64,000 nucleotides of DNA from Aplectana chamaeleonis (taxonomy: Eukaryota > Nematoda > Chromadorea > Rhabditida > Cosmocercidae): assembly GCA_029168955.1 (NCBI GenBank), contig JAPDOI010000010.1, positions 1,771,501-1,835,500 on the forward strand. The letters run 5' to 3'. This document shows positions 28,758 to 49,738 of this stretch, one piece after another. The notes beneath the pieces are model-generated. The model was not told the DNA's origin and ran no database searches. It saw only the letters and a program-made list of their open reading frames with translations. Every line of letters begins with the position of its first letter. Positions within the stretch are counted from its first letter, which is position 1. A program made the translations under genes and the position numbers.

Positions 28758-28758
28758 T

Positions 28759-28833: not shown

Positions 28834-28856
28834 TTTTCCTATATTGTGTCAATATC

Positions 28857-28892
28857 TCTCGAAGCTGAAAGCTTAGAGAGCTTTCAGCTTCG
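28857..28892. repeat. Perfect short hairpin next to BEL 3' region
   Basis: TCGAAGCTGAAAGCT faces AGCTTTCAGCTTCGA with a 5-6-nt loop. It lies just downstream of the zinc-knuckle ORF on the minus strand. A role in 3'-end formation is possible but untested. Confidence 0.6.
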
Positions 28893-28910
28893 ATACTCCC
28901 GCCGGCATCT

Positions 28911-29166
28911 TCAGTTCAGGTGTGCCATTCTCTTCGCCAGTTCAGCCAGTTGCATACCTTTTTCCTGCTTGGTCCTCTGTGCTTCGTTTAGTCTTCTGCG
29001 AATGCCCTCACTAGGCTCCGGTAAAGTACATGCCGCCGAATGTTGTCTCTCCTTGCAATGAAAGCACTTCGTACGGTACTTTGGGCACTGGCTATCAGCC
29101 GGGCAGAGCCATTCCAGACACATTTGGCAGCGGTGTTGCTCCTACAAGAATACGCCTTCTTTCTAC
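28911..29166 (-). pseudogene. Second zinc knuckle, out of frame with the ORF above it
   Basis: In another frame directly downstream of 29167, the minus strand encodes a Cys-rich stretch and a canonical C-x2-C-x4-H-x4-C knuckle (CFHCKERQHSAAC), followed by a charged, probably coiled-coil tail ending at 28911. It is the expected continuation of the upstream knuckle protein, so the reading frame is broken at about 29.13-29.17 kb. Confidence 0.75.
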
Positions 29167-30309
29167 TCAATTGGCGATCCGTTTACAGGAGTCGGCGTAA
29201 TGATCGCCTCGCACGTCGCAGAAGATGCATTTCATGTATCTTTGGCGACCTTCACTTCGCACCTTGCCGTCGTATATTCTCGGAGCGCACGTCTGAGTAT
29301 GAGACATTTCATTTATAACGTTGTCCAGCTCTGCTATTTCACTTTCAATCGCATCGCACTCAGATATCAACGTTTCTCTTTCTCTTCTTCTCTCCGCCTC
29401 GCCCTGATCCTCCGCCATTTCGCTGTCCTCACAGACTTCAAGGTCGTCAACAGCTTCCATGAACTCGCAGTTACCATGAATCACTTCCTCCTCACCTTCT
29501 GGCTGCTGCTGTTGCGGCTGCTCCGGGCGAGCCGAGTTTGTAGAAGCGTCAAGTACTTCTGAAAGTGTGGTGAACAGCTTGCGTTGATTGCCAAACAGCT
29601 TTGCGAATCCGGCATCGCATTTTTGAAGGACTCTTGAGAATCTGGATCGCATTTCGGTGACGTGGCTGGAAGAGGAGGCTTCAGGTGAATGAATTTGCAT
29701 TTTTGCCATCGTTTCCTGAATGTTCGAAATGCCGTCATCTAGACGTCGGCGCAGAGAATCAGCGCTATCCTGCACCAGAGATTGAAGGTCTATTCGTTCA
29801 GCGTGTTCCTCCTCCTTTAACTGCGTTCTAGCTTCTTGAACCTCTTCTTGTAGTTCATCTATGAATCGGAGTTGGTCTGCGATAAGGGTATCTAGGCTCC
29901 CGATGTTGGTAACAATGGGCCAGCCGTCCTCGAATTCCATCTTCGTTGCCATCAGCGCTGCCCAACCTTCTTCAGATATCTTTTTTGTAGCGATGAGCAA
30001 GGGAATAGTCAAAGCGATCGTGCGTATCTTCGTATTACAGAAAGCATATGCCATTCGCATCTTGTCCAATATAACCACCGTGAGCTCAAGCTCATGAAGT
30101 CTGTTCTGCCATGGGGCAAAGTTCGCATTCCGTAGGTCTCGCACACGTCCGCTGAGAAAGTCGACTGTGGATTTGTTGAAAGTAATGTCGATGCTGGTCT
30201 GCACGATCCTTTCGTGAAGTTCATTCGGTCGTGGGAGTACCGGAAGCGCAAACTTCAAGCGCCTTAACTCTTCTTTTACCCTTCGCGATTCCATCAGTGG
30301 ATTGTTCAT
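29167..30309 (-). CDS. Gag-like zinc-knuckle protein downstream of env, 380 aa
   Basis: I choose ATG 30309 rather than the longer open frame to 30414. TTTTCAG lies at 30319-30313, three bases before this ATG, as in trans- or cis-spliced nematode messages, and no ATG occurs further upstream in frame. The protein is mostly helical and charged, with a likely coiled coil in the middle, a Gln/Glu-rich linker (PEQPQQQQPEG) and a C-terminal knuckle CIFCDVRGDHYADSC (C-x2-C-x5-H-x4-C). Knuckle plus coiled coil is common in nematode gag-like proteins. Its place after env, about 135 nt past the env stop, is not the normal gag position. It may be an accessory ORF of the element or the gag of a second, otherwise missing, copy. 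Confidence 0.7.
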   Translation of the reverse strand: MNNPLMESRRVKEELRRLKFALPVLPRPNELHERIVQTSIDITFNKSTVDFLSGRVRDLRNANFAPWQNRLHELELTVVILDKMRMAYAFCNTKIRTIALTIPLLIATKKISEEGWAALMATKMEFEDGWPIVTNIGSLDTLIADQLRFIDELQEEVQEARTQLKEEEHAERIDLQSLVQDSADSLRRRLDDGISNIQETMAKMQIHSPEASSSSHVTEMRSRFSRVLQKCDAGFAKLFGNQRKLFTTLSEVLDASTNSARPEQPQQQQPEGEEEVIHGNCEFMEAVDDLEVCEDSEMAEDQGEAERRRERETLISECDAIESEIAELDNVINEMSHTQTCAPRIYDGKVRSEGRQRYMKCIFCDVRGDHYADSCKRIAN

Positions 30310-30312
30310 GAT

Positions 30313-30319
30313 CTGAAAA
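30313..30319 (-). promoter_or_regulatory. Splice acceptor TTTTCAG before zinc-knuckle ORF
   Basis: A canonical nematode 3' splice site, ATATTTTCAG, immediately before ATCATG. It could accept SL1 or a cis leader and would explain expression of a third ORF from a downstream position. Confidence 0.55.
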
Positions 30320-30444
30320 TATGTTTCTGCGCAAAAATATTCGAGAGTTGCATTATGATACAGTTGATTTGTTTTTTGTTTATGATAAGTTTTGCGAACT
30401 AGACATTGAGCCACTTTTTTCTTGGAATTTTATGACGACCTCCA

Positions 30445-32642
30445 TCATAGTTTCTTAATATGTGGCTTAAAATTCGCTGTATGTCCCTTTAGTGTCAAAC
30501 CTATCGCATAGCAGACTAAGCGTAGCGTCCTTTGTATAAATACTCGAGGAACCGTGATTGCAATAAACCACATAAAGCTGAGCAACCCTTGAAGAACTCG
30601 CACTGCGAATGTTTGTAAGTAGATGTACGACAGAAGAAGGGCGCACACAACGCATATTACTGCGACCATGATAGATTTATACCAAGAAAGTATGACGTCC
30701 CCTATATGGTCGAAGTCTGGCTGATGAAACTCGCTGAAAATCGTGCTATTCCCGTCGAGTATGGCGTTGGGAGCGAATTTCCTGGAATTGATGTATTTCA
30801 GTACTCCTGACAGCACGAAATGATTCGCATTTTTCCGCATGTTATGGAACAGTTCAGGAACTGTCGTGCGGCATCTTTGTGGAGTCGTAGTTTGGTCTCT
30901 ATTCCCTGTGGTGAACAAGGTACCACGAATGCATTGTCGGAGCATATAATTTCGCCCCGTGTGGGAGATCGCGCGAAACATCGCACATTTGCAAATGCAC
31001 CCTTTCCGCACTGATAGCAGCCATAGAGTTCGCTGTTTTTGATTTCGCACGGAATATCGTGTGGTTCAACAACGGAAACGTGAACAGCGTCTGAGTAACT
31101 GACCACGAATTCGGCTGAAACTGAGGCTGGGACCTTTGCAATTAACCGAGAATGTCCATAATAATGTTGCATGAGCTCTAGAGAAGCTCGCTTGATGGGT
31201 AGCTTCGTGTCAAGCCGGCTAAATTCGTTCAATACTGTAGAAGCTCCACAATCACAACGGAACTTGTTCTCTGCTGGGGAGCAGTAGCAGCCGTCATTGA
31301 ATGTGCAATTGCTCACCTTTGCTGCTTCCAAAGTTTTGCATCGAAGATGGGGACGAAATGTCGGACTGAGAATCGCAGTGTCTTGTTTGCGATTGGTGAT
31401 GAAGGGATCACTCATAACTGGCGAAGAAGGGAGCGATAACGATTTCATGGTGATGTGGAAGGACTGTATCTGTTTAGGTATGTTGGGGACAATTGCAGTC
31501 ACATATCGCTTGTTTGCGGCTACATCTCCTAAAATATCCACGACAACCTCCAGTTTAGCTTCTTCTCTCCATCGAGTAAAATGAAAAACTTCATAGATAT
31601 CCGATGTCCGTGGAGTAGCATAGAGTCGATAAAACAGACATCCTGAGCTCAAAAGAAAACAGTCGCAACCGACTCCTCCGCAGGATTCTAAACAACCAAA
31701 TCGTCCTGGATAAGAGTTGCCTTGATTTAGTTCAGGTATAATGCTGGAAGCATTTATCGCAGCGCTTTTTCCCCCTGTACAAGAGCCCATATGCGCGCAC
31801 CGCTTGCTATCCACCACTCGAAGTATGGTATATCAAGTAAAATAATCCGTCTCTTGATCGCATTCCAGAAAAAGACCCTTCCATGCTATATTCACGTTGG
31901 AGATGAGCGTATTATTCCCTGTGAGGCGTAAACATGCTTCGTGCTTGAAGTTATTAAGGTAAAGGGTTGCCGAAAGCGATGCTTTGCACGTCACATGAGT
32001 CTTGTTCTGATCGCACGTTTTGGTCTGATGTTCGAAGACGTTCACGTCCTGACAAGCCAGGGAATGTGGGATACTTCCAAAGTGAAGAGCCATCGCCAGA
32101 GCCAAAGCTTCAGCCAATCTCATAGCTCGAGTAGTTCTCTGCTGCCGCATTCGACGAATCAATATTACCGCGACTGATAGAATTTTCCGCATCAAAAATG
32201 TGATAATTCGCAGCATTATAATTATTGCTTGCTGAACAGGCCTTCCTATTGTGATGAAAACCCAGAGCAAAATATAAGTTGTCGCAATGGCGAGATAGAG
32301 GAGAATCGCGTACAGAAGAATCGCTCTAGATGGCCAGCATTCCGGATTGAGCATAACTGACATGAACAGCCAACAGTTGGCATTCTGACAAAAATCGATA
32401 GCTGGGCATACCGTTTCGATCATCGCAAGCTTTCCGTTAGAGTTCCATTTCAACGTAAATTCTTGATGGGTAACTTCAGGTGGGAATTTGATTATTTCAG
32501 TTTCAGCCGGGGTCATAACCGCTTTACAGTGATAGTCAGCACACACTTCAAAGCTGTTGTTGCGTGTGTGAACGACAATGCCGTCATCAGAACAGCGTAA
32601 ACGCAGAGAAGGGATTTCCCTGGCGAAGCCACTTGCTGTCAC
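30445..32642 (-). pseudogene. Phlebovirus-like envelope glycoprotein (env) of BEL element, broken
   Basis: Three segments cover it. 32642-31833 holds an ectodomain, a membrane segment near residues 107-131 and a second hydrophobic stretch just before a Cys-rich start (an internal signal, ending SLAC near residue 207), as in glycoprotein precursors cleaved into two subunits. 31817-30798 carries GCDCF and GCLFYRLYA (residues ~50-67), which I recognise from the phlebovirus G2/Gc-type domain captured by nematode retroelements. 31050-30445 has a C-terminal anchor at residues ~125-145. A TGA near 31835 separates the first two segments in frame, and a one-base shift lies between 31050 and 30798. The frame stays open upstream to ~32740, with a signal-like run (KWLLVQAAIYVV) overlapping the end of pol in a different frame and without ATG. 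Confidence 0.85.
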
Positions 32643-33903
32643 GACATAGATCGCTGCCTGAACGAGTAGCCACTTGAGAGGAAAATATTTCCATGATAAG
32701 GAAGATGAAGCACTCGCAGTCGTGGCAAAAGAGTGATTTCCCTATTACGCGGTCGAAGATTGTATGGCGGATCACTACTAGTTTGGGTAGCAGGCTGTGG
32801 ATTGTCTGTCCTTTCGCCAGTGATTTCCGTAGTTTCATCTGCCGGATGGGAGTCATCGTCCAGCTCTAAAGGGACCAAAAGGTTCACGGGGCGCCGAATC
32901 GGCCGTCCAGTCGAAGTAATGAGATCTACGCCCCGCACTGCGCCATCAGAACTCTTTTTGAGATTGGTAATTCTCGCCATCTTCCATTCGTTGCGAGGCA
33001 GATTGGGATCCATGATCAGTACGATAGAACCGATCTTCGGGTGTTCAAGTCCTTGTCGTTTTTAGAGAGATACATGACCCTGCCGTTCTTGCAAGCTGGT
33101 CAGGTATTGCTCCTTCCACATTGTCCAAAACTTTTCCGTAATCTGACACGACGAATTCAGCGCGTCCTCGGCCTGTTTACGAGTTCGCAATTGGAACCGT
33201 TGTTCAGGTGGAAGGTATTCGCTATCCTCTAGGTCAGATTCGCTCATGTCAAGAGGGTAGGTCAGTATCATATCCTTTTGCAAAAAGTCGATGGGACGCA
33301 GGGAGCCAAATTGATCAGAATCGGTTTCCTGATATGTCAGGGGCCTAGTATTGAGACATCCTTCGACTTCTGTGACGATTGTCGTGATTTCATCTGATGT
33401 GCGGGATTTCGCATTCCGCAAAGCCTTGTACAGCGCGTGCTTAACTGATTTTATCAGACGCTCATAGAAGCCTCCTTGCCAAGGCGCATAAGGTGTAATA
33501 TGATGCCAAAGAATTTCTCGGTTTGCCAGCAAGCGGTTCAAAGAGTCATCCACAGTAACCTTTCTGATGTGATCTGCGAGGATTTCAGCGCTAAGAGTAA
33601 AAGTGGGTGAATTGTCGCATGTGATTGACTCTGGAATACCTCTTCTTGGAAAGAATCGCCTCAGCGCGGCTAGGAATTCTATGGTACCCATATTCCGTAC
33701 CAATTCTAGGTGGAGTAGACGGGTGACGGTGCAAGTAAATATACACTCATAAGGCTTTGTGTCAGTATCTCCGTGTCGACAGGTTGGCAGATCAAGGAAA
33801 TCGAGACCGATATGCTGGAAAGGGTGATATGTCGTAAGTATGGTAAGTCGTTGTCGTCAGTCTGCGAGGAACCTTGTGGCGGGTTCTGGTTCTTTTGAGA
33901 ATT
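32639..33903 (-). pseudogene. BEL/Pao integrase core and C-terminal domain
   Basis: The core starts about 33.84 kb with HIGLDFLDL (first Asp), then TCDNSPTF (second Asp) and a GGFYERLIKSVK block with the catalytic Glu. The C-terminal part has the PRNEWKMARI and RPIRRPVNLLVPL blocks typical of BEL integrases. A TAA at 33062-33064 interrupts the frame before the C-terminal domain, and the two parts are otherwise in the same frame. The first ~130 nt (33.85-33.98 kb) do not align with a normal zinc-binding linker and contain a TGA. Confidence 0.88.
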
Positions 33904-33983
33904 TACTTAAAGCCACCGGCAAAGGTAAATTGGACCGATTTCGTTGGCCGTCGCCTGGTTGTTGTTGTACAGCAGCGTGACTG

Positions 33984-33990
33984 ATCTTTG
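33984..33990. repeat. Target-site duplication of CR1-like LINE, left
   Basis: ATCTTTG, repeated at 37748-37754 directly after the LINE 3' tail. Confidence 0.75.
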
Positions 33991-34006
33991 ATTACCATTG
34001 AGATCA

Positions 34007-34840
34007 ATGCCGTCGTCTACGTCTCAAAAGAAAGCCAGGAGCAGAGCTATCGAGGAAAACGAACCAGATGCGTCGAATGATGTCGAAATGGCAATGGAAC
34101 AAATGCGTGCTGACAAGAAGACGCCGGTATTTTTGAAAACTCTGATCCTCCATGTTATTGATGTTCAAGGTCAACTTTCGACTGTACTCACGAAAAATGT
34201 AGAGCTCCAAAGTCAAATTGCGACATTGCGTCATGAGAATGACGAGCTGCGTAAGGCCTTAGCTGATGCGCATAAGAATTCTTCTCCTATTCCTGTGGAT
34301 GGATTGAATTGTTCTTGTTCTGTCGAATTTTTTGAGGAGAAAGAGCGCCAGCGCTCAACTGTGATATCGGGTATAGCTGAGCCTAGGAATTCCTCTTCCA
34401 CAACTAGGGCTATGCTCAACTATGATAGTGTGAAAAAGGTACTTGACCATCTTGAGGTTGAATGTGTCCCACAATCTGTTTACAGATTAGGAAAACCTAA
34501 TGTGGAACGTGCTCGTTTGTTGAAGGTTGTTTTACCTAGCTCTTATTATCAACGCCTCATTCTCACAAGAGCCCACTGGTTGCGATCATATCCTCATGGG
34601 AGGGTGTTCATTCGCCGTTCCCTTACAAAAAAGGAGATTAATCGGAACCGGGAGGCTAGGCTTGCTCGTGTCAGCTTAGGTGTGGCGAACACTCAACAAG
34701 AGGAACGCCAAAATTCTGAGGATGATGTTGTCGGCACCATCGCTAGTATTGTTTTTGTTTCTAATGTCGATCAGACTTTTGTTTCTAATACCGATCAGAC
34801 TTGTGTTGATCAATCGCAATCGGGTTCGTCAAACCAGTGA
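34007..34840 (+). CDS. LINE ORF1 protein, ~277 aa
   Basis: I use the ATG at 34007, because no ATG lies upstream in the element. The layout is a basic N-terminus, a Leu-rich coiled coil (residues ~40-90, heptads around LSTVLTKNVELQSQIATL), then a region with PLKVVL-like LLKVVLPSSYYQ and VFIRRSLTKKE blocks seen in CR1/L1-type ORF1 RNA-binding proteins, and a Gln/Ser-rich tail. It lacks CCHC knuckles apart from a CSCSVEF stretch. It would act as a nucleic-acid chaperone in the retrotransposition particle. The TGA at 34838-34840 overlaps the open frame of ORF2. Confidence 0.8.
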   Translation: MPSSTSQKKARSRAIEENEPDASNDVEMAMEQMRADKKTPVFLKTLILHVIDVQGQLSTVLTKNVELQSQIATLRHENDELRKALADAHKNSSPIPVDGLNCSCSVEFFEEKERQRSTVISGIAEPRNSSSTTRAMLNYDSVKKVLDHLEVECVPQSVYRLGKPNVERARLLKVVLPSSYYQRLILTRAHWLRSYPHGRVFIRRSLTKKEINRNREARLARVSLGVANTQQEERQNSEDDVVGTIASIVFVSNVDQTFVSNTDQTCVDQSQSGSSNQ

Positions 34841-37650
34841 ACCGCAGTCATTATTCGGAAAGACTTTTGACTTGTTTCTATGCAAATTGCCGATCTGTTC
34901 CCAAAAATGCGCTTTACATTGATCTTGTGCTGCAAAAGAATTACGATATTTACGTTTTCACTGAAACTTGGTTGAATTCGCAACATACAATGTCATCGCT
35001 GCTAGGTAATCTTAGCCATTGCTATCAAGTAGTGAGGTGTGACAGAAACCGAAAAATGGGTGGCGGAGTAATAATTTTGATGAACAAAAGAATCGGGTTT
35101 TTAGAAATTTTTGCTGAATCCGTCTCAGACTCCTATGAAATTTTATCAACTGATATGATTCTTGAGAATCACCAAATCAGATTTATCGCGGTGTACCGTA
35201 CCCCTTCTTGCAGGACTGAATATAATGATCAGCTGACAAAAGCTATAAGTGATCTATTAGTGTGTGAGCACCCTTCTATTGTCTTGGGTGATTTCAACTA
35301 TCCGGAAATCGATTGGTCTGACCTAGATAAACCACTTGCTACCGACAAGACCGCCTTCGTGGAGATGAAAATTGCTCATAATCTTGAACAATACATTACG
35401 GAACCCACTAAAGGGAGAAATATTCCTGATATTCTACTCACTAATGAACCAACGCTTCTCGGTAATGTATGTGTTGGGCCTCCTGTGGGTTCGAGCGATC
35501 ATAGCAGCGTTACGTTCCATGTTTGTTCGACATACATTGAGCCCCGCTACACGTACTGTCGTCAGTTTGAAAAGTGTGATTATGACCAAGTTTGTAGTTA
35601 CTTGTCAAATGTTGCTTGGAGGGAATCGTTTGACACAATGGTTGGGGTAAATGAAAAATATTAAATGTTGTTGGCCACACTCACTCATGCCATAGACATG
35701 TTTGTTCCATGGCGTCGCGTTACTGCGATGCGTGCTAATCTACCTGCTTATCTACAGAACATGTCTGAACATCGCACATGTTTAGTTAGGCTGGCGAAAA
35801 CTTCTCAAAATCAGTGTGACTGGGATAAATTTCACAGATTCTCGAAAAAATTTCAAAGCGCTTTAGAGAGGTTCAACAGCAATATTGAGAAAAGGATAGT
35901 CGATTCGGGGCGTAAAAATGATTTCTACAAGTTTTTGAACAGAAAGCTGAAAAGTAGCGATTGGATTGGTAGTATCAGAAAAGGAGATTATGTGGCGACA
36001 TCCGACATAGACAAGGCCAACATATTAGCAGATAAATTTTGCGAAGTTTTTCTTGACGACAATGGGCATATTCCAACTTTCAGTCCGACAGCTTCTGAGC
36101 CCATGAGCACATTTCCATGGTTTCATGGATCTTCCCTGTTTGATATCATAAAAAAGTGGCCAAACTCTCCTTCCTTGACACCTGATTACATCCCTACTTC
36201 CTTTCTGAAAAACATTGCTCATGTTATAGTTAGCCCTCTGTGCTATATTTATAATCAATCTCTAATGGTTTCTGAAATCCCATCACGGTGGAAGCATTCC
36301 TTTATCACACCATTGCTTAAGAAAGCCCCTGCGAGTGATGTGGAAAATTATCGTCCAGTCAGCATTACTTCGTTCCTTTGTAGGGCGTTCGAGAAGGTTA
36401 TCAAGGCTCATCTATTTGAATACCTACAGAATAATATGCTAATTCCGGGCTGCCAGCATGGATTTGTACCTTGCCGGTCGACGGAGACCGACATGCTGGA
36501 GTGCATAAATGACTGGACCAATAGTCTCGATTTGAGAAAGGCAAATGATGTGGTATACTTTGACTTTTCGAAGGCATTTGACAGAGTTAGTCATGTCAAG
36601 TTATTGCACAAGTTATCTCAACTGAAAGTACATCCAATAATTTGCAAATGGCTCGAAGAGTTTTTGACTGGTAGAACGTTGCAGGTTAAAGTAGGGTCAG
36701 AATTCTCATCTTGTAGAAATGTCACAAGTGGTGTGCCGCAAGGTGGTGCGCTTTCGCCTCTATTGTTTATGATATACACCTCGGATCTCTCTCAAACAGT
36801 GGGACCTAACGTTGCTATGAAACAATTCGCTGATGACATAAAAATTTACCGAGAAGTAGTTAACTGTGAAGATAGAGCTGCTCTGCAGCATGCAATTAAC
36901 CAAGTGGTGATATGGTCCCGTTTGTGGGAACTTCCCTTTGCCCCTGAAAAGACCGCATTCATGAGACTAGGAACTTCTGACGAGGTTTGTGTCTATTTAA
37001 TTGATGATCAGCGCATCTCAGTGGTCCGGTCTGTCAAGGACCTAGGTTTCTACTATAATGATGAGCTGGATTTCTCAGAACACCTTAGAATCATAAGGAA
37101 TAGAAAAGCGCTGGCGCGCACTTTTCAAATATTCAAAGCGTTGTCTACAAAAAATAAGGAAATTTTGCTGAAAGCCTATAAAATCTATGTCAGGCCAATA
37201 CTTGAGACAGGAACAACAGCCTTCTGTCCTTACAAAAAGAAGGACATTGCCTTGGTTGAAAAAGCTCAGAACAATTTCACGAGAAAGCTGCTAATTCGCT
37301 CTCGGGGTTTCTCCTATTCAGAAATTCCTAGTGCGAGGATGAGGAATAGTTTATTGAGACTGGTCAGTTTAGAATCACGTCGTAAACTGAGAGATGTGTG
37401 CATGGTATTCAAAATGATATCCAGAGTCGTGAAAGTTGATGTTTCACCGTTCTTCACTCTTTCAAAATCACGGACACGAGGCGATTCCGTAAAAATTTCG
37501 TATCGTAAACCAAGATCGAACATAAGAGCCTTTAGTTTTACTTGTCGAGCGGGCTCCGCATACGTCGCCTTAAGACATGGAATACAACCTATCCCTCCCT
37601 TTTTAACACAGTTCAAGCGTTTCGCTAAGGCAAAAATTCTTTTTGAATAA
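34837..37650 (+). pseudogene. LINE ORF2: APE endonuclease + reverse transcriptase, one stop
   Basis: A ~937-codon frame interrupted by a single TAA at 35662-35664. The endonuclease half has ETWL, GGGVIIL, GDFNYPEIDW and SSDHSSV. The RT half has FDFSKAFDRVSH (motif A), SGVPQGGALSPLLF and QFADDIKIY (catalytic FADD). The C-terminus resembles CR1-clade elements. The frame overlaps ORF1 and is open from 34810, but has no ATG near its start. The first in-frame candidate is GTG at 34837, so expression probably needs coupling to ORF1. No frameshift is seen. With one nonsense mutation the copy is probably young but inactive as read. Confidence 0.92.
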
Positions 37651-37747
37651 GATTGCGGTTGACAGTATTATTGTTTTTTTCTCTCTCTAGTTATCTCACG
37701 TTTGTCTTAAACAACGTAATAAATTATCATTATTATTATTATTATAT

Positions 37748-37768
37748 ATCTTTGCACACGACGTCCTG
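37748..37768 (-). pseudogene. 21-nt sliver of BEL between LINE and TIR block
   Basis: It comprises the second copy of ATCTTTG plus 14 nt before the inverted terminus CTCAGGCAAAC. It is explained if the LINE and the TIR block inserted independently at nearly the same place. Confidence 0.5.
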
Positions 37769-37937
37769 CTCAGGCAAACCCAAATGTCGACAGCAGGTTG
37801 AACCACCTGTTTCTCGAGCAACCGGCGATAGCAGGTTCTTTCGGGAGAATAACATGGACCTGTTATCGACCTGCTATCGACCTGTCGATGGCAGGTTCAC
37901 AGCAGGTTGTCAAAGCAACACATCTTACCGCCGGTGA

Positions 37938-39513
37938 CGATTGATCGTCCAAATGCTCATACGAAATTGAAGAACCTGCTTTCGTTTTTTTGTCTTTCGT
38001 GAATCACACCTGTTTTTGTGCGATGAAGCGCAAATCAAGCCTTGTATCGAATGGAATTATTACTCGAATAGTGTTCTAGAGATTTTTGTAGTATTCAACT
38101 ATTTTACCGACTCTTGGGATTTCATTAGGCGTATTTTTTCGAACACCAGGTATATTTGGAGTCTTAAAACATCCTTTTTGAACATTCGATTCCGTGGTGA
38201 TTTTTTACTGCTTTGCTTCACGCTTCATATTTTCCGCCTCTCGTGAATTCTGTTAATCCGGGGAATCGAAAAATTCTTCGCTTTCGTTTAGGTCAAATGT
38301 CCGTTTTTCGAGTATTTGTCTCAATTCAGCTTTCATCATAATTACCCATCAAAAAATTTGTTCATTTGTTCAAGTATATTACTTGAAAACTGTTCGGAAT
38401 TCGAAATCGATTAATTGCTTCAATTTTTGTACAAATATTTACACGTAAAACAATTGAATCGAGTATGTGATCTATTTTCGAACCTACTCGTTTATTTAAG
38501 AAATTTTGAAGAACTCACACCAGGTTTTCAAATCAGTGGGAGACCTTATGAAGATCACAATCGAGGTATTCTCCTCATTTTTCATTAGATCTAGTTTTGA
38601 TGATGTGATTACATTATAGACATGGACAATCGTCGCTGGGTTTTGAATGAAGGAATAATTCAAATATCGCGTTTTTAGAACACCTCAGATGAATACGGAT
38701 AGCCACTATAGAAAAATTTCTGATGAATGAGTTTTTTTTTTGATTACAACCACTTTAAAATTCACGAAAGTACGAATAAAGTCGAAGAAGGCATTCTCAA
38801 AAACTTTGGATGATTTTAATACTGGAATACAGCGTTTTAGAAATTTCGGAATTCGAGAGAATAATTTCGAGCAAGGTCTCTCTTTTTTTTGACTGAACGA
38901 CTGTTTTAGAAAACCTGTCTTCTATTTTAGGCAAATGCATACTTGGAAAATATATCCGAATATTCGAATGAAAATTAGCTTTTTCCGATATGTTTCCGAA
39001 AAGATCTTAAACACTTTCTGCACATTCTCTTTCAATATCCGCACAATTGAATGTAGTGATACAAAATCGGCCGACTACTCAGAAAATCAAATATTCAAGC
39101 TCTCTGAACAAACCGAATACTCCAGAACCCGATCGATTCAAATTTCTGAACGAATCGAAGGCTTGAAAAGGCAAATATCGAAATTCCCGAGCGAAATCAA
39201 CATTCGAAAAGATCAGAAATTGGAATTTCCGGTTGAATCGAATATTAGAAAACTCAACTTTTCCAAGTGTTTGAATTTATATCACTCAGGCGCCCTTGGT
39301 CTGGGTCAGAAGTGCGGCGGCCGCTGCTCAAAGCATAATGAAGCGTTTTGCTCCGAGTAGGGGACAAAAATAATTGCAAACTGGAAAATTGATTTATGTG
39401 GCGATGCTCATAGGGACAAGAGACTATAACAGAACTCTTGTTTCCCTTTTCGCGGCGGTGTGCGCAGTTATGTAGGCTTTTGAGTATTGGGGGCGGGTCC
39501 GAATTTTCACCTG
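37938..39513. other. AT-rich interior of TIR block
   Basis: It is rich in GAATCGA and TTCGAA words like 60.7-61.6 kb. The 141-codon ORF 38935-39360 is made of such words, and I do not support it as a gene. Confidence 0.5.
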
Positions 39514-39645
39514 AGCCCGGATTCATCATTGTGTTAACCCTTGGTTTAAGGATTTGGGTTGGCACCAGGATTAGCGCGTTTCTGCACGCGCTAAATCCAA
39601 CCCAAGTCGAAAAACCCACGGCCAACGCGATGATGAATCCGGCCT
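39514..39645 (+). mobile_element. 132-bp MITE, GGATTCATCA family
   Basis: Termini GCCCGGATTCATCAT and ATGATGAATCCGGCC are inverted, and the interior has TTAACCC and CCAACCCAAG. The terminal core is shared with 54301-56376. Confidence 0.75.
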
Positions 39646-40293
39646 CTGTAGTTTCTCCCTTATTTGATCGAGATCTCGCGCTTGGCAAGGTCGCTATTCA
39701 CGATAGACCGACTATAGTACAAAATGTTACCCCTGAGATTGAACGATGCCTTTAGACATCTTTCATAGACCTGGTCATTTTGGTTCTGCCGGGGATTTCA
39801 TATGTAGTTGCTTCCTGTCCGTGCCGAGCGTGTCGCGCGGTAAAAAGTTCCATAGTTCACCGCTGGCTCCAGGAGCATTCCGTGGCTGCGGTGAGGACTA
39901 TGAAAGATACCTTACGCACGGAGAGTAGATCAGCGGGCTTTTTCCCCTGAGTACCCTCTGTAAAAATTGAAATTCTGATCATTCAGAGCGCGTGCGGAGC
40001 GAGCGATGCTGCTGCCTCCGTCGGCCTCGGCTCTTCCGCTGTCTCTAACCTCCGCTCCGCAACAGCCCGCGCCGAAACCACGAGAATGTACCTGATTTAC
40101 GGTCCAAATGTATCTTTTCAGCGAATATGGTATGCCTTTCCTAGGCGCAACCCTTTCTATATCTAATAGCGCTACCCATAATCCCTACTTTCGTATTTTA
40201 CATTAAAGTGTCGGGAGAGGTTCAAGGGACCGAAAATACTTGAATACACAGTTCCCTCATTCAACCCATCGACTCTGTTCGAGATCCTAGAAC
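39646..40293. repeat. spacer with dispersed repeat copy at 39985-40080
   Basis: GTGCGGAGCGAG and the inverse of GTTAGAGACAGCGGAAGAG correspond to the 5210/56735 family. No gene is supported. Confidence 0.5.
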
Positions 40294-40305
40294 ATTTGAA
40301 CTATG

Positions 40306-43300
40306 ACTTGACTTACTTGACTTAATCGGTTGGCTTTCGCCTGACGCGGTCATTCCGCATCTTCACCGAGGTGTGCCGTCCTAGTAGTCAGCCGTGTCCA
40401 TTTTTCACGGTCTTCAGCCACAATTTGAACACATTCCATCCAGCTGTCACTATTCCATTTCCTGCGAAACGAAACATCGCGCCTGAACTGTCTTTCGATG
40501 CCGAGTGACTTTAAATCCTCTTTAACCACATCCGTCCAGAACTTTCGCCTACGCCCAGGTGGCCGTTTCCAGACAGGATTTGGAAGCATTTTTAAAGCGT
40601 GTTGTACGAGACGATCCGGCGTTCTTCTTAGTATATGCCCGAGCAGTCGAAGTCGACTTTCCATTGCTGCTTGAGATGGCGTTAGGAGATGCTGGCACCT
40701 CCCTCGTGTCAAGCGTTGATGTACTGCGTCGATTTCCTTGTAAAGGTCTTCGTTATGGCATACACGCGGCCAGAAATATCCAAGCAAACGCCTAAAAGCT
40801 TCCTCTCCGTGCAATCCAACCTTTCCATCTGCGTTTTCGGTGCTGCCCACGTCTCCGATCCGTACATCATGATAGGGCGAATAGCGGATAGGTAGACGCG
40901 CAACTTGACTTCCTTCGCGATGGTGGTAGACCACAAACACTTGGTTAGAGAATTGAATGCAGACGTAGCTTTCGCACATCGTTGTCGAATATCCGCTGCA
41001 TAACTACCATCGTTCTTCAGCAAACAGCCCAAATAACAGAAATCGTCCACCAGTTCGATACGTTGTCCGTCCACACAAACTCCAGTTGAAGGCCTCTGAG
41101 AGACCCACATCTGCTTGCATTTGTCGGGACGAAGACGAAGTCCATAGGCTGCGGCATACTTCGAAACGAGGTTCACAATCCTTTGCAGTTTTGCGTTGTT
41201 TTCAGCGAATAACACAATGTCGTCGGCGTACTCCAGGTCGACAAGGGAGCGTCCTGATGGTGTTAGGATCACATCCGCAGGAAACTGTTCTGCAACTCTA
41301 CGCATGATGTCATCAACGGCGAAGTTGAAAAGAAAAGTCCTGCAACGGCTCCTTGCCTTACTCCTGTTTTCACCTCGAAAGCTGACGTAAATCCGACAGG
41401 TGTACGAACTGCTGCTGTTGTTCCTTTGTTCATGTCCTCGATTAACCGCACATACTTTTCCGGGACTGCATCTGCTCGCAGAGCATTGAGCAATCGATCA
41501 CGATGAGGAGAGTCGAACGCGGCTTCAAAGTCCAAAAAGCAAGCTGTAATGGCTTCGAAAACCGCTGCCACGATTCAATTACTCTTCTCACGACGAACAC
41601 TTGGTCGATGGTCGATCTTCCAGGTCGAAAACCGGCTTGCTCATCTCTGGTCGTTCCTTCACGATGTTTGATAAGTCGCTCGAGAATGATACGTTCTAAA
41701 ACCTTGTACATGACACGAAGTAGAGAGATTCCTCTGTAGTTCTTAGGATCCGTGACGGATAGCTTCTTGTGAAGAGGTACGATGATCGCATGTCTCCACG
41801 AATCGGGTATCCTTTCGCTCATCCATATGGCACGGATGGTGTTGGTCATTTCACGAATCCCAGACGGAGGAAGAGCTTTCAGCATTTCAGCAGTGATGTT
41901 GTCATCTCCACCTGCCTTTCCATTCTTCATTTTCCGGACACAATCCAAAACTTCAGACTCAGTCGGCGGTTCCTCACTGACATCGTAATGTGCTCTCTGA
42001 ACATGCGGGAGCTCAGGTACTGATGGCGCTGGACGATTCAGTAGTGAACTGAAGTAATCCTTCCATATTGGCAGCGTCGCATCACCAACTGCAACTCCAT
42101 TGGTAGTGTTCAAGACAGGAGAACATCTCTTCATCTTCCCGCTATACTGTCGCAGCAACGTGTAGGCTTTCCTCGGATTCTTCTCCTCCCAAGCCTTCTC
42201 GAACTCCTTAGCTCTACACGTCCACTCTCGTTCGCGGTCACTTTTAAGCTGCCGACGCAACTTCCTCCTCAGACGCTTCTCCTCCACGAAGTTTCCTGCA
42301 GTTCGGAGAGCACATACTCTGTTGTAGGTAGATGTTGTTTCTTCTGAGACGTAGGCGAACTTCTTCTTAGGCTGTACAACCGGGAGTGCCTCTTTCGAAG
42401 CGTCCTGGATGCATTTGACAAAAGAATCCGCGTCGCAAAGTTTCTTCTTAGTCCGTACTCCGATGTGAATAGAAACGCGTTGTCGGAAATTCCTTCTGCA
42501 CTCTTCATCTCTGAGACTTGTCATGTCAATCCTCTGGAGAGGCTGAGCCCCTCGCTTCCTCTTATGAATCCTCGCAGTGAAGTTCAACAGAACAGGACGG
42601 TGATCCGAATCGAATGCGACATCCCACACAGCTCTAGATCTTCGAATGTCCGATACTGGAATATTCCTCGTCAGGACATAGTCAAGCTGTAGTTTCAAAG
42701 TTGTCATCTTCCGCTTCCGCTGCTCTTCTGGAGATAGCCGGGTTGGTCCCTGCCACGTAAGCTGATGGCGGCGATGATTCCTCTTGAATGTCGATGCAAT
42801 AATCAGACCACTGCGTTCACAAAAGTCGACAAGGCGGTAGCCATTGTCCGATGTTTGCTCCACTGGGTAGAACCATTTACCGAGTACTTCGGATTCCTGA
42901 TCAAGTCCCATCTTCGCATTTGCGTCAATCCCACGACAACAGCATGTTGACAAGGTATCCTGGCCAGCAACGTATTGAGTTCCTCATAAAACGCATCCTT
43001 CGAATTGTCTTCGGCGGTTTCAGTGGGCGCATGAGCACTCACTATCCACAGATTGAATCCTCTGTGATCCCGCAGTCGTACGAATGCATTCCGACACGAC
43101 GTTGAGCCGAACTCCTTGACCATACCATTGAAATCCTTCCTTACAGCTATTGCACAGCCTCCCACTCTCCTATCGTCAGCGTTGCCGCAGTAGATGGTGT
43201 ACTCTCCGACGCTGATGACGGGTCTATCCTGAGGCGGGTTTCCTGCAAAGCAGCAAACGGTGCATGGAAATAGCTCAGAAGTCTGGATAGCGCAGTTTTT

Positions 43301-43466
43301 TGGATATCACTCGACAGCGATCGACAGTTCAGGGTGGCGAAATTGTGGCTTGTGGCCAAAGACTCCATGACTCCCTAGGTACGGATCCTAAGGTGTTATG
43401 GACCAGAGGCCTTAGTGTGCCGGACGGCGACACCTTTATGCAATGTGCGGGATACTTTCGCGATAT
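40306..43466 (-). mobile_element. Full-length RTE-clade LINE with exact 12-bp target duplication
   Basis: The 3161-bp element is flanked by the perfect direct repeat ATTTGAACTATG (40294-40305 and 43467-43478). The 5' UTR is ~98 nt. A single ORF of ~1006 codons follows. The 3' end is a short GACTT/AAGTC tandem tail, as is usual for RTE elements. The perfect duplication indicates a recent insertion. Confidence 0.93.
40350..43368 (-). pseudogene. RTE endonuclease-reverse transcriptase, five 1-nt deletions
   Basis: Read 5'-3' on the minus strand it uses six frame segments: 43368-43147, 43165-42803, 42953-41442, 41571-41269, 41305-40709 and 40979-40350. The endonuclease has LNCRSLSS, LQETRL, SAHAPT, DANAKMG and SDHRPV. 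The RT has QAGFRPGRS, LDFEAAFDS, GVRQGAVAG and EYADDIVLF. The RTE-type C-terminus has LGYFWPRVC and TAHLGEDAE. Every shift is consistent with loss of one base, mostly at short homopolymers: GG near 43.21 kb, GGG near 42.94 kb, T5 near 41.53 kb, C near 41.34 kb and T4 near 40.80 kb. No substitution-type stop codon is seen. Length matches an intact RTE ORF2. It is either a decayed copy or an intact copy with sequencing indels. Confidence 0.92.
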
Positions 43467-43478
43467 ATTTGAACTATG

Positions 43479-43560
43479 TGAGGGCTGATTTCTTGTACCA
43501 AATAAAGTTCGCAGAACTTTTTCTCAATTTAGCGAGTTTCGCATTTCTTGAAATGTTTAG
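43479..43560. other. short spacer between RTE and TA-flanked element
   Basis: Nothing is recognised. Confidence 0.5.
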
Positions 43561-45155
43561 GGCTGGGATTCATGAAAGGCAAACCACGGTTACGGCTGGG
43601 CTAGCGGAGGAAACCGGCATTCACAAAAATCCGGTTTGGTTACGGCTGGGCTACGATTGGGCTACGCGTAACCGCACCTCGGAGCTGCGGTTAACCGCGG
43701 TTAGCAGCGGTTTTGCGGCTTAGTCGTCGAATTGATGGTGTGCTGTATTAGTGCACAACAATAAGGAAACGCACCTTTTGCGAATACGCATAAAAACTTG
43801 ATATCTTCAAGGCAAGCTGAAAATACAGGAATGCCGCCGTTATTGACATTATAGGCCCTCTAGCCATAATGTGTTCCTCTCGATAACAACGAAAATTCTC
43901 AGAATCATCAATCTCATCTTTAAGTTTTATGTATGTTGCCCGTGGCTAACTAAAATCTTTATGCCTGTCCTCCCTGCTCTCGCTCTCTTCTTTATTTTAT
44001 AGCACATCATTGTTCTTTTTGCCTCCACTTTTTGTTCCTAATTCTTGTCTTCCGTGCGCTGACCATTTACCGAGCAGCCACAGGCTCTTCGCTGGGGTTT
44101 CTCCCCCATTTCGGCTCCGAATTCCCTCATTTTTTCCTCAGATTTTTTCCCAGCACTTTTCGTACACGTTTTCGTTATTTTTCTGTTAGAAAACCCGAAC
44201 TTAGTTTGGTACTGTGATGCATGATTTGGTTTTTTCGCATTTGCAACGGTTTCTTCTACTTTTTTTCCAAAGCGCCCACTTGGATTTCGAATGTTAATGT
44301 TTTTTTACATGGTTCTGTGATCAGCCTGGGTTTTCTCGATGTTTTTAGTTCGAACTTCTGTTTTTCCCTTGCATTTTGAGCTTCTTCCATATGATTTTTC
44401 TTGGGAGTCGTTTTAGTTTTCTCCTGTTGTGAGCGACAGTAAGCTTGTGTGAGAATGACAAAGAGAAAAAAAAAAAAAAAAAAGGATTCTTAGACAAAAA
44501 AAAAAGATGGAAAAAAACTCGGAACTCCAACTACAAACGGAGAACTTGAAGCCAAATACTCATCGAGAGGACGATGATGATCCCTGCAGCAACACCTAAG
44601 CCATGTGAAACACACAAAAAATTTAGAGGGGCGTTTCGAAAAAAAAAGAAGTTGAAAAGGCTAGTAATGCGAGAAAAAAGCTAAATTGGGGGTTGAAATT
44701 TCACCAGCAGGTTTGCGGCTCATCGTGAGAAAGCAGCACCACTTTATGTACTTTTGAAAAACCACAAAGGATTTGTTAAAAAAAGGAAAAAAATGAAAAA
44801 CTTAAAAATGAAAAAAAAACATCTCCAAGTTGAGGAAAATCCCTTTAAATGCCTGCGATCCATTGAAGAAGGTAAAGCACAAGGTAGACAAAAATAAGAA
44901 TTCAAAAAGCAAGCAAAATTAGCAATCATGTGCAACAAAGTGACGGGATAGGGAAATTCCGACCCGAGTGCCAATATTGATTTTCTCCAATCGAGATTCT
45001 CGGCGTCAATTGAGTGGCAAGTACGTGGCCGCGGAATGGTTAGCCACCCAACCACGATGGGGCGGTTGTGAATGCCGGTTCGCGGTTTGGCTACCGCTGG
45101 GGTTGCTGCCCTAACCAAACCCAAACCTAGCCGGCTGCGTTCATGAATCCCAGCC
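43561..45155 (+). mobile_element. 1.6-kb non-autonomous TIR element, TA-flanked
   Basis: GGGCTGGGATTCATGAA at the left is mirrored by TTCATGAATCCCAGCC at the right, with TA outside both ends (43559-43560, 45156-45157). Subterminal GGTTACGGCTGGGCTA/CGGTTAACCGCGG words lie at the left and GGTTAGCCACCCAACC at the right. The interior is A/T-run rich and non-coding. TA targets suggest a Tc1/mariner-type mobiliser. Confidence 0.82.
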
Positions 45156-45157
45156 TA

Positions 45158-45899
45158 GAAGGTACAACTCCCATTATATCTACATCATGCAACGTCTTCA
45201 AGCCAATCAACTTCAAATTTTATTTTAATGCACAACAATTTATCTTACTGCCTACACCTACTCATTTTGCCAATTATCAGTCACCTTTCAGAGATTAGAT
45301 TTTAACACTTTCCAAGGGTTTCTGAAAAGAATTAACCACAATCAGGAAAATAGTTATAACCAGAGAGGACACTGTGAATAATACCTACACCCGCAAATTA
45401 GAGGTTCGGTGAGGAAATATTCTCAGATAATGAAGCTATGCCAGGAGTTCCCGCTTCGAAAAGTCCCGGAAACTGCGATTTTCACCCATTGGAGAAATTT
45501 TATTAATCCGTTTTAGTACCATAATCCTGCCCTCACATATTCAAGTTCTATATATAGATAGTTTGCCTAATTCTCTTGGTTTTCGCATCGCTGCTACATA
45601 TTTCTTGCTTAAAGTTTCAAAAAACCCGTTAAAGTCGAATTGGTTCGAAAAAAAATCAATTACTTTTTTCCTTCTGTCGGCTACTGTAAGCTGCGAAATA
45701 GCTCATATATTGAGTCGGTAAGAGTTATACCTCGATAATAATCACGGCCGAAAAAAACCGAAATTCCCATGTTAAAGGGCAGTTGAGTATGGGGACGGCT
45801 ACAATGTAATAATACAGCAATAGTTTCTGAATCCTGCGATGGTTCAGGTCTTTTAACTGCTCCGAATTTTGAAGGTGGCCAAACTCATCAAAAGTCCGT
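45158..45899. other. AT-rich spacer inside TIR block
   Basis: Nothing is recognised. Confidence 0.5.
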
Positions 45900-46142
45900 T
45901 GATAGGATGTCTGCAGAAAAATCCATTATTCCGGCGGTAGCAGGTCGACAGCTGAACCTTTCGAGGCTTCAGTTAAGTCATGCCACCGTCTCGAAATCCG
46001 GTGCTAGGAGGTCTACACCTGGACCTTTCGGCGTGATACCAGGTTCTCTCGAGCCGAAATCACGCTTTTTTTCGTGTCTTCAGCTGATCTGCTCTGTGAT
46101 GACACCTCAGAAACCTGCTGTCGACATTAGAGTTTGCCTGAG

Positions 46143-46583
46143 TGGCAAGTCAGTTGATTCTGGATACTTAAATGGCAACCCATTGAAGCGGCGGCAAAGG
46201 ACACACCTGTGTATGAGCTGCCGCACTTTTTGTCGCAATTTCGGTATCCAGTATTTCCGTCGCACTGTGGAAATTGTGTGCCCCATACCTTGATGAAAAA
46301 TTTCATGTGCTTCCTCAATGATTTTGTCAGCTAGGTCCGTAGTGGGCACAACTAAAACTGGATTTTTCGCATCTTCGCCTAAATGCGACTTTCCTATGCG
46401 ACCTTTACCTCGCCAAATTTCTTTATCGTCTTGAAATAGCCGTAATGATGCCGCCATAGATCTCCTGTACTCAGCGGATAGATATGAACGCTCGTGATTT
46501 TTGAAAAGGACGGATTGCGCAGCCTGCATTTCAGTTCCAGAAATAGTGTTGGAGCAGTCTTGTATTTCCTGGAGTTCTGGCAT
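46143..46583 (-). pseudogene. BEL integrase N-terminal zinc-binding domain, truncated
   Basis: The HHCC-type domain is visible as HQGMGH, then RRKYWIP and CVLCRRFNG, followed by FKYPES. The frame ends at the inserted TIR. It is one frame away from the preceding RNase H segment, so there is a frameshift near 46.6-46.66 kb. Confidence 0.88.
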
Positions 46584-46654
46584 GCTCTCGTGTATTTTCT
46601 CGAAGAAACTGGTTTATCGCAAACACTGATTTACGGAACGAAGGACCAAAACCG

Positions 46655-47395
46655 TTATGCGTTTAACATCCACCAGCGATCTGAACCTCTTTTACGCAAC
46701 CAAATCGCAATCGGGCTGATGTGCAACATACGAGTTGATGAGGACGACGCTGTCGTCTTCGTTTTTTTTTCTTCGAAATTTTCCCGTGCCTCATCGAAAC
46801 CATAAGCGTTCTCGGCTCGCAAAACGGACGGGGAATCTCTCCACTCGCTTACAGGGTCCTGTAGAAACGATGGTCCGGTCCACCAGCTGTGTTGTTGGAG
46901 TTGTTCTTTGGTCAATCCACGTGTACCGGCGTCTGCCGGGTTTTCCTGTGATTGTACATAAGCGAAAAAAACTTGTTTGCCGTTCTCCTGGAAAGTCTCA
47001 ACGATATTGCGAATTTCATGGCGCCGATTGCATACCAGTAAACCCATACTTGACTTATCCATCGGCGTGTTTAGCCAACTCAGCGCTATCTGCGAGTCCG
47101 AAAAAATGTAGATCTTACTGAACTGGACCCGTTCTTGTAGGGCTCTGAAAATTGACCACGCTAAGCGAGCGCCTAACGTCAAGGCATTCATTTCCAGTTT
47201 GGGAATGGTTGTCTTGCATTTGATGGATGGAAGTTTCGATTTCGCCATAAGAAGAGATGAGTGACCATTTCCAAAAACGTAAGCACATGTACCAATCGCA
47301 GATTCGCTTGCATCAGCAAAAAACGACCAAAAACATTTCTCCTTCTGGTGACTCATGAAGCTGTTTAGGGAATGCCCTATGGAAACCTGACGCAT
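46655..47395 (-). pseudogene. BEL RNase H / connection domain
   Basis: FADASESAIG (first catalytic Asp), IPKLEMNAL (Glu) and FSDSQIALSWL (Asp), followed by RHEIR and the NPADAGTRG block specific to BEL/Pao polyproteins. A one-base shift near 47.34 kb and a TAA at 47454-47456 separate it from the RT. Confidence 0.9.
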
Positions 47396-47453
47396 TGTCG
47401 ACTATGGTATTCCATTCTGCTGAATGCTGCGGAGATAGGGCTCCGTCCCAGTC

Positions 47454-48803
47454 TTACTTCGCAATCCATAGTTCCTGTTGAGACCGCTTCGCTGGGATCA
47501 AAAGAGGAACTAGCCAACCCAGAGGGTCGTATATAGATGCAATTTGACGAGCTACTACGCGCTTCGTTATGGATCCGTTAAAACGTAAGTCGCACCCAAT
47601 AGTCACTTTCCGAATTCCAGAGAACTCCTTGAACCTTTTGAGTTGTTTTCCGCGAGTAACGTCATCTGGAAGAACGGACTGTAATTCTTCTGTGTTTGAC
47701 AGAAATTCCCGTAAATTCATATTCATCTCGCCGTAAATCTTTCGGGTTCGCACGGATTTTTCGATGACTTCGTCCACAGAAGAAGCGCTCAAAATAAGAT
47801 TGTCGACATAAAGATTGTCCTGAATTTCGTTCGCAAGGTTCCGATCATCGACATGGTTACTCAGATGGAACATAATTGTGCCACTTAGCAGGAAGGGGGA
47901 GACATTTAGACCGAAAGTCACCCTGGTGAACCTGTACTCGACAACGTTATCACCTTCCGGTAATTTGTTCACATCTCGCACCCATAAACATCGAGTTGCG
48001 TCCCTGTCGAGTTCGTTCAGGTGCACCTGCAGAAATGCTTTTTCGACATCAGCAGTAATTACATACTTCGCCACCCGGAATCGAAGAAGCATCGCGTATA
48101 TTTCTGGTAGAATAACTGGTCCTTGGTGCAGAATATCATTCAGCGAAGGTTGGTCTTTGTAGTGAGATGACGCATCAAAAACTACTCGCAACTTAGTTGT
48201 TTCTTTGTGAGGAGTGACCACCGGTTGGTGAGGGATATAGTGCCGCACCGAACCATTCAATGCATTATTTTCAGGAACTTTTTCGAGAACTCCTCGCTCG
48301 AGCTGGTCGTGAAACGTCTTTTCATACTCGTTCAAAAGGCCTGGTTTCTTACTTAATGACCGTAATACATTCTCAAGCCGCCTTTGTGCAAGTGCCCTAT
48401 TGTCTGGGATTTGAGCATGATCTGTTTTGTATGGGTACCGCACGTAATAGCCATCGTTTCTCCTCTCGATTGTTTCGTTAAAAAATCGCATGACCTCCGC
48501 GTTAGTGGCTACCTTTTCAGCTTTTTTAGCGCCCGAGAATTCTGTTATTTCTGCAGAATCCAGGGCCCAGTATGTGTCCCATTGATTCAATTCATCCTCG
48601 AAATTCACGATTGTGCACACACCTGTGGCTTCGGAGGTGATGTCGCATTCAATAGGATCTTCAGGGTCGGGAAGATCTTGTGGTCTCGCCGCCAACTGTT
48701 GACGTGTCACCAAATATCCCATTTTGGAAGGGATCAAGTAGAGTCCAGATGGAAGTGTCAGCTGTGGTTGCGATGTATCCAAAAAATTCCACAGTTGATC
48801 GCA
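47454..48803 (-). pseudogene. BEL/Pao reverse transcriptase with protease C-terminus
   Basis: RT motifs are VVFDAS, TADVEKAFLQV (motif A, residues ~243-253 of the 48782 frame) and NLYVDNLIL (motif C). The last reads YVDN rather than YVDD; I recall YVDN as common in nematode BEL elements, so it is not proof of loss. The TGA at 48804-48806 interrupts an ILxGCDQLW block at the protease end. The same position is Gly (GGA) in the family, so a single substitution explains the stop. Confidence 0.9.
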
Positions 48804-49722
48804 TCATAAAAGAATTCTGGGTCTCGATACGGTATCACGAACGGGACGTGACAACGATATTTTGTGCGATTGGATAAAATAAAGATCTTCAGCTAGCAGC
48901 TGCACCTGCTTGCTGAGATGGAGTAAGGTTTTCATTGTGTGCAATCGCAATTCGTGACCGTCACCATTGCAATCCCGCGCCTTCATTGTGGTGATGTCAC
49001 AGATCATATTATTTGGTTGTGGCGCTCTAAATGTGAACATATTCAGAAGAATCTGCTCGGAACTTTTAAGTTCCAGCTCTTCTGCCAAATCAGCACTGAT
49101 GAAGGACTTATCAGCCAGCACCTGTATCAAGAAGAATCTCAACAGATTCCATCTTTGATTTCCTCGGATTCTTGACCTTCGCAAGTCCTGTGAGGAGTAG
49201 TACATCTTTTCTCACCGCTTCGTGAGCGTTTTCAGTGTATAAAACGAACCCCTTCTGTGATTCAGTTTCACTGAGTTCTTCAAGCCCCTCATCGGACGCC
49301 TCAATCGCATACGCCCGTGAAGAAGTCGATTGGCCTGGCTTTCGTTTTTCTGCGCGTTTTTCATTTCGCAAGCCCCTCGTAAACGTTTTCTCTTTGTTAC
49401 CTCTATGCGTGAAGTCGGAAATCTTGCCGTCATGCGCAGAAGCGCCGCTGCTCCCGCGGCCTTTGTCCAGTCTTGCCATTTGAGGGCAGATGGACTGATT
49501 GCGTTTTTTCCCACCGCACTGTCGACACCCGTCGCGCTTACATGTTTGCGAGAAATGCCCTTCGTAGCCGCAATTCGAACATCGTCTGTTGCGCTTCAGA
49601 GAGGCGACGCGTTCTTCAACGGTTGCTATCTTCTTGCAATCTGCACTCCTGTGGTTGGACAGAGGACAAAAAAGGCAAGAAAAGGTTCGTGGATGATTAT
49701 AGACAGTCTTGGAAATCACCAT
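48804..49722 (-). pseudogene. BEL gag zinc knuckles and aspartic protease
   Basis: 49722-49111 has CLFCPLSNHRSADC, CSNCGYEGHFSQTC and a third, imperfect knuckle CRQCGGKKRNQSIC. A basic/acidic linker follows, then the protease active site LLDTGA. The frame shifts by one base just after LLDTGA near 49.13 kb, and the protease continues as DKSFISADLAEELEL in 49205-48804. Gag capsid sequence is absent. Confidence 0.88.
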
Positions 49723-49738
49723 ATTTGAGTCCAGCGTG

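Follow-up and report, generated by a model that had tools for sequence, protein, structure and literature searches.

Nested insertions within the integrase of a nematode BEL/Pao element and a Gag-nucleocapsid-like gene behind its env

We analyzed a stretch of 64,000 nucleotides (nt) from the nematode Aplectana chamaeleonis (contig JAPDOI010000010.1, positions 1,771,501 to 1,835,500; G000:C10:1771501-1835500 in our numbering), here called the window, and searched the assembly from which it comes (1.04 Gb, 2087 contigs). Positions below are counted from the first base of the window. On the minus strand lie two fragments of a BEL/Pao retroelement, with a long interspersed nuclear element (LINE) and a block bounded by terminal inverted repeats (TIRs) between them. 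Fragment 1 (46143 to 49720) encodes gag zinc knuckles, a protease region, reverse transcriptase (RT), RNase H/Peptidase_A17, and the integrase zinc domain; Pfam placed RVT_1 and Peptidase_A17 in the frame at 47454 to 48803, Peptidase_A17 in that at 46655 to 47401, and Integrase_H2C2 (E 7e-14) in that at 46107 to 46613. Fragment 2 (28439 to 33830) holds the integrase core, env, an open reading frame (ORF) that we call ORF3, and the 3' long terminal repeat (LTR) at 28439 to 28894. The core and the start of a DUF5641 tail occupy 33062 to 33830 (rve, rve_3, and DUF5641 in the frame at 33062 to 33856), so named from Pfam and found in 7 other full-length copies. Env (30445 to 32741) consists of phlebovirus-type Gn/Gc-like frames, of which the first overlaps the integrase tail; a stop and a frame break interrupt them.

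Judged by its domains, the element is an env-bearing endogenous belpaovirus (BEL/Pao) with a phlebovirus-type G2. Its pol is of the BEL type (RT, Peptidase_A17 region, integrase H2C2 and core), and its Env matched Phlebovirus_G1 (E 6e-5) and Phlebovirus_G2 (E 5.7e-14 and 9.4e-62). The best PDB match of the Gc piece was 7a4a (E 9.1e-31), entered under the name integrase catalytic domain-containing protein, which we take to be the Atlas Gc. The RT motif YVDN stands in the frame at 47454 to 48803; the 5' gag of the family contains DUF1759 (E 1.2e-22 in the frame of copy C287), a part that is missing from the window. In the sections of its description that bear on this point, Atlas virus of Ancylostoma ceylanicum (Belpaoviridae) likewise has a BEL-type pol, a phlebovirus-type Gn/Gc-like Env, and LTRs, and YVDN is given for nematode belpaoviruses (PMC9094657).

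Two halves of one integrase

A preliminary description of this DNA had proposed that the two fragments supply complementary parts of one integrase and that an uninterrupted copy of the family should be sought. When the assembly was searched at the DNA level with the integrase core, 40 rows were obtained. Besides the window itself, they comprise 7 further full-length copies (92 to 97% DNA identity), a partial copy at 96% (C83), and 31 relatives that are weaker or partial. All seven full-length copies join the two halves contiguously via the same 17-nt linker (one-base variants in C84 and C1562), and they align across both borders of the window's interruption, with identities over the aligned stretches of 93 to 97% on the A side and 91 to 95% on the B side. 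On the A side, L010 and L011 showed 95.9% and 91.3% identity over 1258 nt, and L012, a rearranged locus, showed 97.2% over 106 nt. The two fragments are therefore supported as halves of one element, as had been proposed; they do not belong to different families, and neither carries a full integrase of its own.

The linker lies at 37750 to 37766 (minus strand), between the two insertions. Read along the minus strand, the window runs from a zinc domain ending TTGCCA through the TIR block, CA, GGACGTCGTGTG, and CAAAG into the LINE, and the uninterrupted copies have at the same place TTGCCA, GGACGTCGTGTGCAAAG, and ATATCACCC. The preliminary description had taken 14 nt of this as a foreign sliver; they are integrase coding sequence plus the duplication of the block, and the linker comprises that sliver and part of a supposed LINE target duplication. 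Among 120 listed of 206 integrase-core homologues found in other sources, 39 match both halves, and the gap between the half-matches is 7 to 9 residues in 27 of them and 3 to 87 in the other 12, owing to matches that stop early or late. The linkers of these relatives are of the type xRRVxxSR, and only 10 of 127,966 six-residue stretches in the six frames of the 64 kb score as well against them as the peptide that the sliver encodes. The closest integrase homologues come from nematodes, the best among the matches listed being 60% identical and from A. ceylanicum. The integrase piece also gave ubiquitin-like PDB matches (best E 0.007), which we regarded as chance.

Two loci of related interest differ in arrangement. 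L012 (C562) is a rearranged copy of the same family with env pieces on both strands around the integrase, and L008 is a BEL copy in which Env pieces come straight after those of RT and RNase H, without a match to the integrase in between.

The TIR block and the LINE

The block extends for 8.4 kb, from 37769 to 46142, and contains later insertions. Its inverted arms (37760 to 37799 and 46112 to 46151) are 85% complementary, with the terminal repeat proper running from 37769 to 46142, which agrees with the end previously placed at 37769. With 45850 to 46142 as the query, 554 first-look candidates were found and 40 scored; of the resulting 41 rows, the window being among them, 38 stop at the last query base (293 of 293) and one each at 292, 291, and 236. 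Position 46142 is a real element end, and fragment 1 stops against it at 46143, as had been described. A 2-bp duplication flanks the block (TG on the plus strand, CA on the minus strand; left 37767 to 37768, right 46143 to 46144), and its left copy is absent from the uninterrupted linker in all seven copies.

As far as seen, the block is nonautonomous: three of its ORFs, scanned outside the RT element, gave no Pfam family and no transposase. That RT element, a minus-strand insertion at 40294 to 43478 with RVT_1 (E 1.4e-8) in the frame at 41442 to 42983, is flanked by the 12-mer ATTTGAACTATG (40294 to 40305 and 43467 to 43478); "RTE-type" is the label of the preliminary description only. That one BEL element was hit at least twice, and the block later by another retroelement, is borne out by the uninterrupted copies. 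Two further inverted pairs in the block look like nested TIR elements or miniature inverted-repeat transposable elements: one at 43561 to 45155, with 16-nt perfect arms about 1.6 kb apart, and one at 39513 to 39646, with 50-nt arms 34 nt apart.

The LINE (33831 to 37749, plus strand) consists of a 16-nt filler (33831 to 33846), family sequence from 33847, ORF1, ORF2 with endonuclease and RT domains (Exo_endo_phos_2 and RVT_1 in Pfam; one in-frame stop), and a repeat-rich, ATT-rich 3' tail. Its 5' boundary had been misplaced. The approximately 150 nt before the integrase core are missing from all seven BEL copies, but other LINE copies contain them from 33847 onward. At the place of ATCTTTG (33984), among nine other LINE loci, two (L031 and L038) have ATCTTTGATTACC and L034 has ATATTTG; L037 reaches this place and differs, and the remaining loci do not align across it. 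Because the ATCTTTG at 33984 is LINE-family sequence, the BEL half begins at 33830 and not at 33984. The integrase core assigned to that fragment is confirmed by Pfam. The target duplication of the LINE is ambiguous, from 0 to 4 bp and at most ATAT.

These data also decide between readings of the junction. In its details, the preliminary version had the LINE start at 33991, flanked by a duplication ATCTTTG, with a foreign 14-nt sliver and about 130 nt of unexplained sequence before the core. A 7-nt match does exist at 33984 and 37748, but the 33984 copy lies inside the LINE and is carried by other LINE copies, the approximately 130 nt are the LINE's own 5' sequence, and the sliver is the BEL linker, leaving that version practically no chance of being right. 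Because they are LINE 5' sequence, we also rejected the idea that those 130 nt were inserted separately, with a TGAT repeat. It would be extremely improbable for two different BEL elements to lie side by side here or for an assembly error to have joined them. Many BEL copies occur in the genome (1073 first-look candidates for Peptidase_A17), and the halves differ somewhat in identity to single outside homologues; against this, both halves match the same seven copies contiguously, ending exactly at the borders of one 17-nt linker between the insertions, and on that match the idea of two unrelated BEL fragments was rejected. The nesting lets one element be traced base by base through later insertions, and it corrects two mistakes that are easily made: accepting a false target duplication and taking part of the element itself for a "sliver".

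A Gag-nucleocapsid-related gene between env and the 3' LTR

ORF3 (28911 to 30309, minus strand) encodes about 465 residues, is helical in its N-terminal part, carries three zinc knuckles, is broken once after the first knuckle, and has TTTTCAG directly before ATCATG. All four copies examined have it between env and the 3' LTR, in C84 in an interrupted or rearranged form. The ratio of nonsynonymous to synonymous polymorphism (pN/pS), pooled over 10 pairs of five copies, was 0.49 for the main part of ORF3 and 0.47 for its end, and 0.48 and 0.64 for two env pieces, with single pairs ranging from 0.21 to 1.51. The copies are decayed, and the pooled values therefore probably understate past constraint.

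Searching the assembly with the ORF3 protein gave 106 rows, and 73 of these were compared by position with the 40 integrase rows, 33 second fragments on listed contigs being left out. For 26 of the 40 integrase hits, including the window, an ORF3 match lies on the same strand within 9 kb, and in 26 of 26 the nearest is downstream (2.7 to 4.3 kb). Six such regions were compared partly by eye, and Env frames precede ORF3 in five (L048 to L051 and L053), with Phlebovirus_G2 in the Env of L049 (E 1.6e-95) and L050 (E 1.4e-60). The ORF3 frames of L049, L050, and L053 measure 477, 483, and 472 amino acids (aa), the latter two being 27% and 19% identical to the first, and none of the three matched a Pfam family at an E of ≤0.01. 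The zinc regions of ORF3 and of the 5' Gag align with each other in hhalign (probability 93.3, E 2.6e-7, 71 columns, 24%). The family has a fourth gene, Gag-nucleocapsid-related, between env and the 3' LTR.

Homologues of ORF3 were not found among 6534 candidates at an E of ≤0.001, in a search confined to proteins of 0.55 to 1.75 times the query length, nor among 548 candidates at an E of ≤0.1, with long polyproteins outside that length range. ORF3 had no match among PDB profiles at an E of ≤0.01 and none in IMG/VR. An ORF3-like domain does occur in C1524 (L074, C1524:475900-477500), in an open frame of 2369 aa, in frame after LRPRK, a motif that resembles the integrase tail. Because this domain directly follows an integrase-tail-like motif, the ORF3 domain may predate the captured Env.

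The start of ORF3 was compared with the nematode splice-acceptor consensus. TTTTCAG precedes it in five of the six distinct window-family copies compared, and TTTCCAG does so in C1975; in C84, the ORF3 start pattern was not matched. Among the relatives, L048, L049, and L052 have TTTCTAG or TTCCTAG, L050 and L051 have TTTCAG, and L053 has TTTCAG 13 nt before the ORF3 ATG. In the window, 10 of 2108 ATGs have TTTCAG within 12 nt. ORF3 may be made from a spliced mRNA and act as an RNA-binding accessory protein.

A spliced accessory protein is already known from another nematode retroelement: CERV of Cer1 in Caenorhabditis elegans is an extra protein from a spliced mRNA that serves the genomic RNA, as far as its description extends here (PMC10309623). 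By analogy, ORF3 would be another extra protein of a nematode LTR element, with splicing and an RNA role predicted. Cer1 is of the Ty3/gypsy type, and CERV has a possible C4-type finger in the same description, whereas ORF3 has three Gag-like knuckles; the two were compared by description (PMC10309623). The Atlas polyprotein, in the parts of the account that set out its layout, is a Gag-Pol-Env protein ending with Gc (PMC9094657); because about 175 nt are left for the rest by our arithmetic, Atlas virus has no ORF3. In contrast to that layout (PMC9094657), the family here spans about 10.8 kb and has 465-nt LTRs in C287, its frames are split, and ORF3 follows env, before the LTR in all four copies examined, so that it does not form a single polyprotein ending with Gc. 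Metazoan BEL/Pao elements share its class, gene order, and wide presence in nematodes, and the portion of their account that covers these points does not mention a post-env Gag-like ORF (PMC3118150). In the literature searched, a post-env Gag-like gene was not found described; homologues inside polyproteins lie beyond the protein searches.

Nesting of this kind is ordinary in a repeat-rich genome, and a post-env Gag-like ORF is less expected. We regard ORF3, a conserved post-env Gag-like gene with its own acceptor-like site, as mattering more than the nesting. A clade of nematode env-belpaoviruses may be organized like a complex retrovirus, with gag-pol-env plus a conserved fourth gene for a diverged second Gag that is made from a spliced mRNA and serves the genomic RNA, a proposal for which we see as much reason for belief as for doubt. 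This putative second Gag would have a helical N terminus, an acidic middle, and three zinc knuckles, and its role would be binding, export, or packaging. If this is true, these worm retroviruses would use accessory genes and splicing.

The truncated 5' end and the history of the element

The limits of the element, previously given as 28911 and 49738, are instead about 28439 and 49720. At the 5' side the alignment begins at 49720 in three of three copies holding the region, the C84 part holding other sequence. LTRs were analyzed in separate parts of four copies (C287, C1975, C1562, and C84): pairs are 99.57% identical over 465 nt in C287, 93.8% over 260 nt in C1975, and 92.5% over 451 nt in C1562, and no pair was found in the parts of C84 compared. 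C287 has a duplication TATAT, and its outer ends are about 10.8 kb apart by coordinates. The window copy has a single LTR, homologous to both LTRs of C287, and lacks the 5' LTR and the gag N terminus. It is flanked by a 14-nt near-repeat on the minus strand: CTGGACTCAAATAT at the 5' junction (49721 to 49734), whose first 10 letters occur in the window only here and at 28438, and CTGGACTCAAGTAT at the LTR end (28425 to 28438). Thus CTGGACTCAA(A/G)TAT stands at both present ends, with the 10-mer twice only in the window, and a 10-mer was shared within 20 nt in 61 of 400,000 random junction pairs. A search of the window for the missing 5' BEL part matched the 3' LTR only, and the next 20 kb of the contig held none of it.

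Probably, an incomplete cDNA integrated at its U5 end and was joined abnormally at the other. Insertion of a whole element whose 5' LTR and gag N terminus were deleted later is appreciably less likely. Given the normal 5-bp duplications of this family (TATAT at C287), whole insertion is the default, and the 5' part is absent from the window and the next 20 kb; a simple deletion, however, would not place beside gag a sequence that belongs outside the 3' LTR, and the only two occurrences of CTGGACTCAA in the window are those at the two ends. Nor does ORF3 look like the gag of a neighboring or tandem element, which we consider very unlikely. A relationship to Gag nucleocapsid is seen in its zinc region, but ORF3 sits between env and the 3' LTR in the four copies examined, other families have it downstream of the integrase and never upstream as the nearest match, and the 5' gag of this element encodes a different protein, one with DUF1759; on these three grounds, we rejected that origin.

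In the preferred course of events, the belpaovirus would have been truncated when it entered, its reverse transcription would have stopped in gag, and one of its ends would have been joined abnormally. The integrase linker was hit at two points 17 nt apart, by a TIR DNA transposon that left a 2-bp duplication and by a LINE, in either order, and the TIR block itself took a later RT-bearing insertion. We are nearly certain of the account as a whole: a single belpaovirus, probably truncated on entry, a linker hit by the TIR block and the LINE, and a fourth gene in the family.

Several observations weigh against parts of this account. Two insertions 17 nt apart within 9 kb are an unexplained coincidence, and misassembly is excluded only indirectly, in that the linker reads intact and the block ends at its family terminus. 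No same-strand ORF3 lies within 9 kb of 14 of the 40 integrase hits. One of these, C562, has ORF3 pieces on the opposite strand; a second ORF3 query (96 rows) reached only C26 among the 14, at 24 kb and on the opposite strand. L052 has ORF3 behind the integrase with no Env frame between them. Both structure models of ORF3 are of low confidence (predicted local distance difference test score [pLDDT] 43.5 for the first, which was not used, and 67.1 for the second, with a predicted template modeling score [pTM] of 0.37), and the second had no Foldseek/PDB match at an E of ≤0.001, the best being 0.2. The evidence for truncated entry is a 14-nt repeat that contains one mismatch, and the 5' end could also stem from a later, abnormal deletion.

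Other repeats lie around the element. A minisatellite of TGTGCAGGACCC-type units occupies 50472 to 52581, upstream of the truncated BEL element; TGTGCAGGACCC-like minisatellites also occur near the start of L022 and at 5572 to 6402 of L049, and similar units lie downstream of the BEL copies in C1975 and C2064. At 24278 to 25087, the window holds a tandem array with a 72-bp period that is about 96% homogeneous and open in several frames. An ORF at 17291 to 17704 (plus strand) resembles, by eye, the C terminus of a Tc1/mariner-type transposase.

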